From NCBI GenBank assembly GCA_003003615.1, contig PVWD01000019.1, positions 1-42,703 of the forward strand: 42,703 nt of DNA, given 5' to 3'. This stretch comes from a filamentous cyanobacterium CCP2. GTDB lineage: Bacteria; Cyanobacteriota; Cyanobacteriia; Elainellales; Elainellaceae. Both the position numbers and the translations under genes were made by a program. This document shows, one piece after another, positions 38,143 through 41,937 of the stretch (positions are counted from its first letter, which is position 1; every line of letters starts with the position of its first letter). A model generated the notes under the pieces. It had not been told where the DNA came from and did no database searches. It saw only the letters and a program-made list of their open reading frames with translations.

Positions 38143-39969
38143 TTAGAAGGAGAAGGTGGTACGGATTGCCCCAGCGAACGAGTCACTGATGTCCGTATCG
38201 CCACCGGGGTTGTTCAACCAGACCACACCGGGGGTGATGGAAATGCGGTCAGTTACACGGAAGCGGTAGAAGCCTTCAATGGCGAACGGGATCTGGTCTG
38301 CGCCTCGGGTTTCTGAGAGTCCGGAGAAGAAGATGCCATCACCGAAGCCTCTAGCGTAGAGGGGTGCACCAAAGAGGATACCGAGCAAGTTGCCTTCACC
38401 ACCCAAATCAGGGAACGCGACGGTACCCTGATAGCTCCACACGTCGTAGTCTCCCCGTCCAATTACACGAGTGGGGATGTAGGCAATCCCTCCTCCAATC
38501 TGAACGAAGTCTGCCAGTTTGAAGTTGACCTGAGCACCGTAGACGTTGAGCACCTGTGGACGGTCTTCTTCCAGGAAGAAGCTGTCGTTGAAGTAGCTAT
38601 TGGAGTACATCAGGGCGGCATCAAACGCTTCGCTGAGGAAGCTTAGCTGCACGATTGCACCATAGTCTCCATTGAACAGACCTGCACCATCAGCAGAGGT
38701 ACCGGCTTCACCGGAAGCATAGCCAAAGTCAAGGCTGAGGTTTTCAGAGAACTGCACAATTGCACCCGCACCAAAGCCACCTGGAATTACAGAGTACTGT
38801 GGAGGAGCACCGAAGTTGGTCAGAGACCCTTGACCGCTGCTGTCAAAGGGGCTAACAGTGGTTGCCACGAAGTCAGAATCACCGATGCTGTTAGCACCAA
38901 TGATGAACTGGATGTTGCCAACCGGGAAGGTGTACAACAGGTCATCTAGGGCGATGTTGTTGTTGGCGGGGCTACCTTGACCGAACGACCAACCCAGACC
39001 ATTGATGTCCAGAGAGTCAAAGCTTTGGAAGTTACGAGCTTGAAGGCGTGCTCTCAACAAGTCTTCGCCAGTGAAGCTGGTGTCAAAGTTCAGTCGAACG
39101 CGGTAGCCGCCAATTGCCTGAGAGTTGTCAAAGACATCTTCGTCGTAGTCAAAGGGGACAGCGACAGCGAAGATGGTTTCACCTCTGAGCTTGGTGGTGG
39201 TGGAGAACTGGTTGGCTTCGAGTTCAGCGACACGGGCTTCGAGGTTATCCACCCGACCGCGGAGGGTTGCCAGTTCAGCGGCGAACTCTTCTTGGAGTCG
39301 CTGGAGGGTAGCGAGGTCTTCGCGAGTAGCTAAGTCAGCGGTGCTTGCTGCGATCAGTTCGCTGATGCGGTCTAAACAAGCGTTCAAACCTGCCGCAAAC
39401 TCGTAGCGGGTCATGGCGCTTTGACCGCGATAGGTGCCATCGGGATAACCTACAATACAGCCGTATCGTTCAACCAAAGATTGAAGAGCTTGGAAAGCCC
39501 AGTCTTCAGGACGAACATCGCTCAGTTGCGTGATGGACGTGACCTGAGAGAGGGAATCTTGGTTGTTGCTGTACTGGAGGATTTCGTCGAGGGAAGAAAC
39601 CTCAGATGCAGGCTGCTCAGTCGCGGTTTGGGCGAGTTGAACAGGTTGAGAGACAACTGGCTCATCAACTGCAACAGTCGTTTCGTCTACGGTTAGCTCG
39701 TCTACAGAAACGATCGCATCCACGCTTTCCTGAGCTTCGGGGGCTGTGCTCTCAAGGGAGGCTGCACCAATCTCAACGGGAGCAACTTGCGTAGAGAATG
39801 AATCAGAAGCCTCTACATCGATTGAAATATCTGAAATATCCGTAAACAGAGAATCTGCTTCTGCATTGGGTTGCAATTCCACTGCAACAGCAGAAGTAGA
39901 CATGATCAAAGCTGCACCAAGCAGAGTTGGTGTAGCCAATAGAGCGTTCCAAAGAACTTTGGTTGCCAT
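38143..39969 (-). CDS. SLH-domain outer-membrane porin (SomA/SomB, iron uptake porin family)
   Basis: A 608-residue exported porin. The signal peptide (about 1-30, ending in AVAVELQ) is followed by an acidic/Val-rich linker. An SLH domain (about 150-205: RPEDWAFQALQSLVERYGCI, GYPDGTYRGQSAMTRYEFA) binds cell-wall polysaccharide. A coiled coil (about 215-255, LRGRVDNLEARVAELEANQ) and a C-terminal OprB-type beta-barrel ending with the aromatic FSF follow. It is the major cyanobacterial outer-membrane channel for small solutes and inorganic ions including iron. The start ATG 39969 has GAGG 11 bp upstream. Both a terminator after it and a complex region before it support a strongly regulated single gene. 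Confidence 0.94.
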   Translation of the reverse strand: MATKVLWNALLATPTLLGAALIMSTSAVAVELQPNAEADSLFTDISDISIDVEASDSFSTQVAPVEIGAASLESTAPEAQESVDAIVSVDELTVDETTVAVDEPVVSQPVQLAQTATEQPASEVSSLDEILQYSNNQDSLSQVTSITQLSDVRPEDWAFQALQSLVERYGCIVGYPDGTYRGQSAMTRYEFAAGLNACLDRISELIAASTADLATREDLATLQRLQEEFAAELATLRGRVDNLEARVAELEANQFSTTTKLRGETIFAVAVPFDYDEDVFDNSQAIGGYRVRLNFDTSFTGEDLLRARLQARNFQSFDSLDINGLGWSFGQGSPANNNIALDDLLYTFPVGNIQFIIGANSIGDSDFVATTVSPFDSSGQGSLTNFGAPPQYSVIPGGFGAGAIVQFSENLSLDFGYASGEAGTSADGAGLFNGDYGAIVQLSFLSEAFDAALMYSNSYFNDSFFLEEDRPQVLNVYGAQVNFKLADFVQIGGGIAYIPTRVIGRGDYDVWSYQGTVAFPDLGGEGNLLGILFGAPLYARGFGDGIFFSGLSETRGADQIPFAIEGFYRFRVTDRISITPGVVWLNNPGGDTDISDSFAGAIRTTFSF

Positions 39970-39987
39970 TTGTTTTATCCTCACACC

Positions 39988-40013
39988 TAATCTAAAGGGA
40001 CTTTAGACTATTA
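39988..40013 (-). other. Hairpin in the porin 5' UTR
   Basis: TCTAAAG and CTTTAGA (39991-39997 and 40001-40007) make a 7-bp stem with a 3-nt loop, extendable by TAAT/TTA on either side with a small bulge. It is only about 20 bp before the porin ATG and just upstream of its ribosome site, so it may modulate translation or protect the mRNA. Confidence 0.45.
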
Positions 40014-40143
40014 ATCATTCCGAACCGTAAGCCTGAGAAATTCGATCGAATGGAATCAACGAAAACTTCGTTAGATAATTCTTTCGACTTTGTCTTCCCA
40101 GTGCTGCGAATAGTCGCCTGTCTGAAGGATTCCCATTCGCCTT

Positions 40144-40222
40144 AAAAAACTATCCGCTCTCACCAGGCTGCCATTTGGAGAGAAAATAAAAATCTATCCA
40201 TCATGTCAGAAAGTGAGAGCGG
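40144..40222 (-). terminator. Long-range hairpin with T-run upstream of the porin (terminator or attenuator)
   Basis: On the minus strand CCGCTCTCAC and GTGAGAGCGG (40213-40222 and 40154-40163) are a perfect 10-bp inverted repeat with a 49-nt loop, followed by ATAGTTTTTT. It ends about 175 bp before the porin ATG. It could end the transcript of the short upstream ORF or act as an attenuator for the porin. The large loop is unusual for a simple terminator. Confidence 0.55.
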
Positions 40223-40268
40223 TGTAGCGGGTCTTCAGATTGAAACCAGACTGCCGGGAGGAACGATA

Positions 40269-40325
40269 GACCAACCCAGCCCACTCATCTAAAATGCCGA
40301 GACATTTTGGCTAAGCGATTTGGTC
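40269..40325 (-). other. Structured RNA element with nested helices downstream of the short leader ORF
   Basis: Three nested pairings are visible: GACCAA/TTGGTC (outer, 40320-40325 with 40269-40274), AGCC/GGCT (40309-40312 with 40278-40281) and AAAATG/CATTTT (inner, 40303-40308 with 40291-40296). The element starts six bases after the stop codon of the short ORF at 40331. It does not match any RNA family I recognise. Confidence 0.45.
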
Positions 40326-40330
40326 GGCTA

Positions 40331-40402
40331 CTAAAGAGCAGCCCCGGCACACAGCCAGCTTACTCCAACCTGATGACCCATCCGTTTACTACTATCTTGC
40401 AT
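40331..40402 (-). CDS. 23-codon small ORF with a near-perfect Shine-Dalgarno
   Basis: ATG 40402 opens MQDSSKRMGHQVGVSWLCAG and ends AAL at TAG. AAGGAGGTGATG immediately upstream is an almost full complement of the 16S rRNA 3' end, with AAGGAGG spaced 8 bp from the ATG, the strongest ribosome site in the window. Residue content (Lys/Arg/His N-half, hydrophobic C-half with Trp and Cys) could be a regulatory leader peptide. It lies between tldD and the porin gene, followed by a structured element and a terminator-like hairpin. I do not recognise the peptide. An in-frame ATG two codons upstream is too close to the Shine-Dalgarno. Confidence 0.5.
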   Translation of the reverse strand: MQDSSKRMGHQVGVSWLCAGAAL

Positions 40403-40536
40403 GGGCATCACCTCCTTGTTCCCTTAACGGTTTAGCTCTTAGAACATGGGAGCAGTAAGCGTTTAACACTTACTTACCTGAAAGTCAGAATAGCACAGAA
40501 ATTTAGGAGATGGTAGGAGACAGTTCAAGATGTGGT

Positions 40537-41937
40537 CTATTCAGCGGCTTCTCCACCGACAACAACACTGCGAATTCGTAGACTGGGGCCGCCGCAACCA
40601 ACGGCCAGACCACTTTGCCCGCCTTTGCCGCAGCCACCAGACTCATCCCAGAAAAAGTCATCTCCGATCGCCTCAATATCTGCCAGGGTCGTAAATACAT
40701 TGCCGGAAAGATTCACATCTCTAACGGGTTCTGCAATCTCGCCATTACGAATCATCCAGGCTTCTCCAGCGGCAAAGGTAAACATTTCACCGTTGGTCAT
40801 ACCGCCCAGCCAGTTTCGAGCGTAAACACCCTCTTTGATGTCGCTGAATAACTCTGAAACAGGAGTTTTACCTCGCTCAATCCAGGTATTGGTCATGCGG
40901 ACGATCGGCGGATAGTGATAGTTAAGGCAGCGGGCATTTCCGGTGGGGGCTTCTCCAAGTTTGCCTGCGGTTTCGCGAGAGTGAAGCCGACCGACCAGCA
41001 CCCCGTCTTTGATGAGTTGAGTGGTACTTGCCGGAACCCCTTCATCGTCATAGTAATAGCTGCCCCGATGCCCTTCGGGAGCCGCTCCGTCGTAAATTTG
41101 TAGCTCTGAGGAGCCAAACCGCCGTCCTAGCGTCATGACCTCCAGCAAATCAGGATTTTCGTAGGCCATGTCTGCTTCCGAGAGATGCCCAAAGGCTTCA
41201 TGGACAAACAGCCCGGAAAGGATAGGGTCAATAACGACGGTATAGGTATTGCCTTTAACAGGGGGCAATGCCAGAGCATCTACGGCTCGTTGGGCAGCAC
41301 CACGCACCTGAGCATCTAAGGTTTCCAGGTCTTGATAAGCTTTGCGCGAACCAGTGGTTTCTCGTCCGGTTTGGACGGTTTCACCATTGCGGGCAGTTGC
41401 CGCAAACCGCATTTCCAGGTCAATCCAGGATTGCTCAATCAAAGTGCCTTCGGAAGTAGCGATGATGATTCGTTGGGCACTGTCTCCATAGCGGACAGAG
41501 GTTGTGGTGATCCGATCGTCTACACTCCTCAAGATTTCAGCATAGTGACTGCACAAGGCCTTCTTTTGTGGCAGTGGAATTTGGCGAGGATCGGTTCCAG
41601 TCAATGGAATTTGGCGGCTGTCTTGAATCGGAGCAATGGGAGCCAGCAACGTTTCTTCATCTCCAACCAACCGTGCAGCTGCGATCGCCTCTTCAATTCG
41701 TTCCTTCAGGCTGGACAAACGGTTAAAGCTGGCAAACCCCCATCCACCCTTATGGCAAGCCCGGACTTGCCCCCCAATCGAAATTCCCTCGCTGAGCGTT
41801 TCGACTTTGTAGCCTCGTAGCAGAATGTCAGTTCCTTCTGCCTCCTCCAAGCGAACCGCCAGATAATCCACCTGCGATCGATACTGGGCAATGAGTTCAG
41901 TCAATATATTCTTGGCATCAGACAGCACCGTAGCCAT
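40537..41937 (-). CDS. tldD: TldD-family metalloprotease
   Basis: A 466-residue zinc protease subunit of the TldD/PmbA family. The metal-binding HExxxH is at His246-Glu247-His251 (FVHEAFGHLSEAD). Also visible are an N-terminal substrate domain beginning after about residue 15 and the conserved NTWIERGKTPVSELFSDI and VYARNWLGGMTNGEMFTFAAG. In E. coli TldD pairs with TldE (PmbA), unfolds and degrades short peptides, and matures microcin B17. No tldE partner is adjacent here. The ATG at 41937 fits the family start. The stop is followed by the porin leader region on the same strand. Confidence 0.95.
   Translation of the reverse strand: MATVLSDAKNILTELIAQYRSQVDYLAVRLEEAEGTDILLRGYKVETLSEGISIGGQVRACHKGGWGFASFNRLSSLKERIEEAIAAARLVGDEETLLAPIAPIQDSRQIPLTGTDPRQIPLPQKKALCSHYAEILRSVDDRITTTSVRYGDSAQRIIIATSEGTLIEQSWIDLEMRFAATARNGETVQTGRETTGSRKAYQDLETLDAQVRGAAQRAVDALALPPVKGNTYTVVIDPILSGLFVHEAFGHLSEADMAYENPDLLEVMTLGRRFGSSELQIYDGAAPEGHRGSYYYDDEGVPASTTQLIKDGVLVGRLHSRETAGKLGEAPTGNARCLNYHYPPIVRMTNTWIERGKTPVSELFSDIKEGVYARNWLGGMTNGEMFTFAAGEAWMIRNGEIAEPVRDVNLSGNVFTTLADIEAIGDDFFWDESGGCGKGGQSGLAVGCGGPSLRIRSVVVGGEAAE

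Follow-up and report, generated by a model that had tools for sequence, protein, structure and literature searches.

A conserved, structured RNA gene with a 23-codon reading frame upstream of a porin gene in the filamentous cyanobacterium CCP2

The minus strand of the analysed DNA of the filamentous cyanobacterium CCP2 (42,703 nt of contig PVWD01000019.1, called the window here) contains, upstream of a porin gene, a real and well-conserved RNA gene that is both translated and structured, ordinary in its identity and interesting in its anatomy. For positions 40144 to about 40480, an autonomous RNA gene rather than a leader of the porin is part of the explanation which we consider the best; taken as a whole, including the switch proposed below, this explanation is held to be fairly probable. 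From its ORF, synteny and distribution, the RNA almost certainly belongs to the published ncl0160 / Sye_sRNA1 family. In the original prediction, a 23-codon ORF, a nested RNA element and a terminator-like hairpin were read as a translation-coupled attenuator of the porin gene. A minus-strand reading of 39900-40700 together with the ORF listing located all of these parts where they had been placed. The parts of the locus are as follows, with the basis of each assignment in brackets.

40487..40497, minus strand: extended -10 promoter motif TGTGCTATTCT (comparison across homologs)
40407..40417, minus strand: Shine-Dalgarno (SD) sequence AAGGAGGTGAT (11 nt complementary to the 16S 3' end)
40331..40402, minus strand: 23-codon ORF MQDSSKRMGHQVGVSWLCAGAAL, from ATG to the stop TAG (start and stop usage in 171 loci)
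40401..40409, minus strand: hairpin H0, 5' arm GATGCCCAT, comprising the end of the SD and the start codon (folding of the 5' half)
40372..40381, minus strand: hairpin H0, 3' arm ATGGGTCATC, overlapping the P1 5' strand (folding)
40375..40379, minus strand: helix P1, 5' strand GGGUC, within the ORF (covaries with GACCC)
40229..40233, minus strand: helix P1, 3' strand GACCC (covariation)
40364..40372, minus strand: helix P2, 5' strand, within the ORF (covariation)
40236..40244, minus strand: helix P2, 3' strand (covariation)
40343..40358, minus strand: helix P3, 5' strand CUGGCUG[UGUG]CCGGG, at the end of the ORF (covariation)
40246..40260, minus strand: helix P3, 3' strand CUCCCGGCAGUC[U]GG, containing an anti-SD-like CCUCC (covariation)
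40269..40326, minus strand: variable nested-hairpin domain GACCAA...TTGGTC, 58 nt, present here and diverged or missing in homologs
40154..40222, minus strand: 3' hairpin PT, 10-bp stem and 49-nt loop (covariation)
40213-40222 and 40154-40163, minus strand: perfect 10-bp repeat CCGCTCTCAC/GTGAGAGCGG (sequence reading)
40144..40153, minus strand: tail ATAGTTTTTT / AUAGUUUUUU with the conserved part GGAUAGUUUU, probable terminator (alignment)

With transcription starting near 40480, as the position of the -10 motif suggests, a unit of about 335 nt is predicted for the window.

Conservation of the RNA and of its reading frame

The 287-nt stretch is a single copy in its own genome, and BLAST detected it in 73 of the 98 relatives searched across the class. 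A covariance model, R1, was built from 42 homologs and found matches in 294 of 390 genomes, representing 137 of the 160 genera of the class, nearly everywhere with one copy; homologs score about 130-240 bits with it. When genomes were drawn from the whole phylum, the RNA again turned up in cyanobacteria of this class; beyond the class, among the non-photosynthetic members, only four weak R1 matches were obtained (E 6e-4 to 1e-2 per genome, rough values since the calibration of R1 was short), and for the one that was inspected, L173, the likeness is limited to the SD and start-codon region. The phage and plasmid collections searched contained no match to the RNA. Conservation of the region is far beyond chance. 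A lack of conservation of the ORF or the stems in relatives, considered in the original prediction, is the opposite of what was seen, both being conserved and the stems covarying.

Divergent copies were identified at the margins of the family. In two marine-type Cyanobiaceae loci (L160:1498-1671 and L161:1486-1661), strongly diverged copies have retained P1 and P2 and contain 17-codon ORFs, MSHSCKKQGLLIAENAG and MSHSCSIKGLLIAENVG; marine-type Cyanobiaceae genomes have so far been omitted from surveys of the RNA. In the small Microcystaceae-like genomes L095-L099, the SD, the start and the D-S-S motif alone are clearly conserved; divergence or loss has affected the rest of the ORF as well as the 3' domain.

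The 23-codon ORF at 40331-40402 was confirmed, and so was its SD as the strongest in the window: it is an 11-nt match and the sole run of at least 9 nt that is complementary to the 3' end of 16S rRNA, whose tail sequence was assumed from general knowledge. At least 10 nt of this complementarity are kept in 137 of 171 homologs. Across the 171 loci, ATG and GTG are used exclusively as start codons, the stops are TAA in 91, TAG in 73 and TGA in 7, and the ORF is mostly 23-24 amino acids long; TAC or TAT was found at the stop position in none of the homologs examined. The lack of in-frame stops arises partly by construction, because 23-codon ORFs were selected, so that the informative observations are which codons occupy the stop position and how many stops the other two frames hold, namely 0.83 and 3.5 per ORF. 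Indels are in frame, the N-terminal motif M-x-D/E-S-S-K is conserved, and codon 3 keeps Asp or Glu with a free third position. Codons 2, 7 and 13 encode widely varying amino acids, and the sequence of the peptide's second half tracks base pairing. Translation of the ORF is well supported by these comparisons, which point to selection on translation as such and on the exact peptide only in part.

A covarying fold with the reading frame as one strand

In an alignment of 57 homologs (A1), the conserved structure consists of the long-range helices P1, P2 and P3, which join the ORF to 40229-40260, and of the 3' hairpin PT. Of the cells in its 39 pairs, 97.2% are paired, and compensatory changes were found in 29 of the pairs (220 cells), a level reached in none of 500 shuffles; sliding the partners by one column lowered the pairing to 48-49%. 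For 62 held-out loci outside the structure derivation (A4), 97.8% of cells are paired with 241 compensatory cells and again 0 of 500 shuffles as high, in an alignment which was fitted to the model and is hence biased towards it. Compensatory changes affect 7 of 8 pairs of P2 in A1 and 8 of 8 in A4, 9 of 12 pairs of P3 in A1, and 8 of 11 pairs of PT in A1, where the CCG/CGG base of the stem is invariant. For P1, such cases are GAGUC/GACUC in L055 and GGGUU/AAUCC in L049, and further ones identified by eye are GCCAGG/CCUGGC in L007 and GUCGGG/CCCGAC in L044. Taken from the alignments, the fold is well supported.

The long-range pairing of the ORF with 40229-40260 had been missed in the original prediction. 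Its nested element of 57 nt does exist (58 nt, 40269-40326), but is the least conserved part of the RNA and is absent in homologs such as L061 and L063. The perfect 10-bp repeat followed by a T-run was likewise found, but its loop is 49 nt long and an AUAG spacer separates the stem from the U-run, and because of these features a standard terminator scan misses it and was negative. The PT stem and the U-run are conserved, and the tail GGAUAGUUUU is kept in all homologs of the 57-homolog alignment. The anti-SD-like CCUCC was predicted to pair with the SD of the RNA itself at negligible probability only.

The combination of a selected reading frame with a covarying fold has to be set against two simpler readings. 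According to the first, which we regard as rather unlikely, the RNA is a trans-acting regulator and selection acts on its fold; the ORF would be translated incidentally, its start and stop codons being retained only because they help to shape or clear the RNA. This would agree with the wide variation of the amino acids at the unpaired codons 2, 7 and 13, with a W/R exchange at codon 16 which tracks a covarying pair, and with the shortening of the ORF to 17 codons, with the fold intact, in Synechococcus elongatus-like and putative Thermosynechococcus genomes. It is difficult to reconcile with the exclusive use of ATG or GTG and of TAA, TAG or TGA, with the in-frame indels, with the preservation of Asp/Glu at codon 3 and its free third position, and with the RNAcode-based view in the main text of PMC4734099 that ncl0160 is translated.

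According to the second reading, the gene is a plain small-protein gene whose product is the peptide, the RNA fold merely protecting or tuning the mRNA. The alternative named in the original prediction, a small-protein gene that is independent and has a terminator of its own, holds in essence, since the unit has its own -10 motif, a selected start and stop, and a 3' hairpin; the strong SD and the conserved N-terminus also speak for a small-protein gene. What this description leaves out is that the ORF forms part of a covarying RNA fold: base pairing accounts for the C-terminal half, C-termini are unrelated in L096 and L097, the most divergent homologs, and the covariation of the 3' domain exceeds what the protection of an mRNA needs. 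As a full account of the locus, this reading is judged to be clearly improbable.

A predicted start-codon hairpin in competition with helix P1

Within the preferred explanation, an additional hairpin, H0, was predicted at the start codon. Pairing is possible between the start region GAUGCCCAU and codons 8-11 (AUGGGUCAUC), whose UGGGUC also provides the 5' strand of P1. For 92 homologs, folding in the absence of the 3' domain gave a mean predicted probability of 0.84-0.85 for H0, with the AUG unpaired at 0.18-0.20; in the full RNA, P1 was predicted at 0.92, H0 at 0.07 and an unpaired AUG at 0.52. Shuffling of the ORF and spacer reduced H0 to 0.01, and the window RNA itself folds likewise, with H0 in its 5' half. 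The folding programs used ignore ribosomes, proteins and cotranscriptional kinetics. The columns of H0 are nearly invariant, with pairing of at least 90% at seven positions, and for this reason its covariation support is thin, amounting to about two compensatory cases, a number not above column shuffles. In the full RNA, too, some pairing between the SD and the leader persists (SD unpaired 0.32). Sequestration of the SD by the leader was considered and rejected, since the value of 0.46 compared with 0.33 in shuffled leaders is a small excess.

From these predictions, a sequence of events can be proposed. In the nascent RNA, H0 would pair the start codon with codons 8-11 and keep ribosomes off. 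Once the 3' domain is made, P1 (GGGUC with GACCC) would capture the shared strand, so that H0 opens and the very strong SD could recruit a ribosome. Translation of the 23 codons would then peel P1-P3 apart and free the 3' strands CCUCCCGGCAGUC and CAAUCUGAAGACCC, and refolding after translation would reset the RNA. With moderate confidence, we infer that the start codon is closed until the 3' domain exists and that translation then unfolds this domain. Since the ORF is itself a strand of P1-P3, translation and the structure of the 3' domain would be mutually exclusive, as would be expected of a dual-function RNA with a peptide and a regulatory part; the estimate given above for the best explanation as a whole applies here.

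For the function, we favour, as a guess, a 3' domain which acts in trans depending on the translation state; the peptide may be an additional product. The trans-acting role is called a guess, one that the fold would allow, because the 3' strands gain only a modest degree of exposure when the ORF is masked; the accessibility of CCUYCC rises slightly, from 0.33 to 0.39. A complete self-gated switch, in which the 3' domain unlocks a start codon that is closed in the nascent RNA, and which would report the translation state of the cell to targets or park ribosomes on the extended SD, is put forward tentatively as a possible but doubtful extension. If it were true, one of the most abundant cyanobacterial RNAs would be a self-gated sensor of the translation state. 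With a covariation-backed fold, a covariance model and the hypothesis of competing hairpins, the function would be directly testable by a few point mutations.

Two copies of the hexamer GATAGT are present in the RNA on the minus strand, in the loop of H0 (AGATAGTAGTAAA, 40388-40396) and in the tail (GCGGATAGTTTT, 40150-40156). Both copies are strongly conserved in the 57-homolog alignment and may represent a common binding site.

Gene neighbourhood and relation to known RNAs

The unit appears to be a separate gene, a view well supported by its own -10 motif, SD, ORF and 3' hairpin. Of 171 homologs, 109 have the motif TGTGNTA (TGTGYTATNNT), in most cases 70-85 nt 5' of the SD, against 7 expected in shuffled sequence. 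Upstream of the RNA lies psbD in 74 of the 171 loci and cobB in 9; the window copy follows tldD, not psbD. Draft contigs often break at psbD, a few hundred bases 5' of the RNA, and psbD commonly has a second, near-identical copy. In the putative S. elongatus-type homologs L080 and L083, the RNA lies between psbD and a SomB-type porin.

Downstream, the attenuation of a porin leader by coupled translation can be examined directly. The order of elements in the window, with SD and ORF, hairpins and a terminator-like hairpin followed by the porin, agrees with this proposal, as does the presence of a same-strand porin in 85 of the 167 loci with enough flanking sequence and never of one on the opposite strand. 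However, the porin is absent in the other 82 of the 167, and in 30 of these the first long downstream ORF is convergent; because a leader which controls the next gene cannot sit at porin-less or convergent loci, the proposal fails for the family. Other genes often lie between the RNA and the porin, such as that of a pterin dehydratase, which was found in 58 loci. No antiterminator helix in competition with the terminator hairpin was found in the homolog alignment, and masking of the ORF made no difference to the predicted formation of this hairpin. Attenuation of the porin as the role of the RNA is thus very improbable.

Neither the peptide nor the RNA had been recognised in the original prediction; they correspond to two published descriptions, which we take to concern one family. 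For ncl0160, the main text of Brenes-Alvarez et al. 2016 (PMC4734099) describes a transcribed RNA with a predicted secondary structure and a conserved ORF of 23-25 amino acids, always preceded by an SD and present in 83 of 89 non-marine cyanobacteria, where it starts with ATG or GTG and ends with TAA in 47, TAG in 34 and TGA in 2 of the 83. The window family shares its ORF length, its start and stop usage (171 loci) and its spread (137 of 160 genera), whereas the main text of PMC4734099 gives neither a function nor long-range helices between ORF and 3' domain nor a start-codon hairpin. Sye_sRNA1 is described in the main text of PMC6091082 as the most abundant sRNA of Synechococcus elongatus UTEX 2973, a free-standing RNA with a transcript of about 200 nt and 53 homologs of conserved secondary structure, most of them downstream of psbD or cobB, gene contexts which both occur in the window family as well. 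Its counterparts are TU475 in PCC 6803 and TU2045 in PCC 6714, and members of the family are reported among the most abundant cyanobacterial transcripts and as down-regulated in high light. In contrast to the window family, it is treated in the main text of that paper as an sRNA with the ORF unmentioned; the predicted window unit also differs in its length of about 335 nt and in its location after tldD.

This published abundance and light response, together with the complementarity to 16S rRNA of at least 10 nt in 137 of 171 homologs, could suit a decoy whose SD of 10-11 nt titrates or parks 30S subunits under the H0/P1 gate, but the selected stop codon and reading frame indicate complete translation, and we regard the decoy as very improbable.

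In the literature searched under the names ncl0160 and Sye_sRNA1, no function was found. No earlier report was found there of the 3' half of this ORF as a strand of long-range helices, or of a start-codon hairpin competing with P1. With Rfam release 15, at gathering and relaxed thresholds, neither the window nor ten homologous loci gave a match; the models below threshold in these sequences include Downstream-peptide, glnA, cyano-1/2 and psaA. Thus a family found across most oxygenic cyanobacteria, with highly abundant members, is yet without a match in this release. The Downstream-peptide RNA, Yfr6 (RF01704), is also a structured cyanobacterial RNA with a short ORF, but its ORF comes after the structure; it was rejected as the identity of the window RNA for this different layout and the Rfam scan without a match. 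Dual-function RNAs such as SgrS/SgrT and SR1/SR1P offer another comparison. If the preferred reading is right, the likeness to them is that one RNA provides a peptide and a structured part (PMC5126843); there is no homology, and the window family differs in using its ORF as one of the strands of the regulatory fold.

For the porin, a conserved control site of its own, separate from the RNA gene, is recognised from the sequence. All 10 nt of GGTGTGAGGA, at 39978-39987 on the minus strand, are complementary to the core of the small RNA Yfr1. The stretch covers the putative ribosome-binding region of the porin, just before the start (39969) of this SomB-type 'iron uptake porin'. In 79 of 85 loci, against 0.6 expected, the 8-mer GTGTGAGG is found ahead of the porin, and the source genome contains one Yfr1 core, at C392. 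Known targets of Yfr1 in Prochlorococcus MED4 include two porins (PMC6778093).
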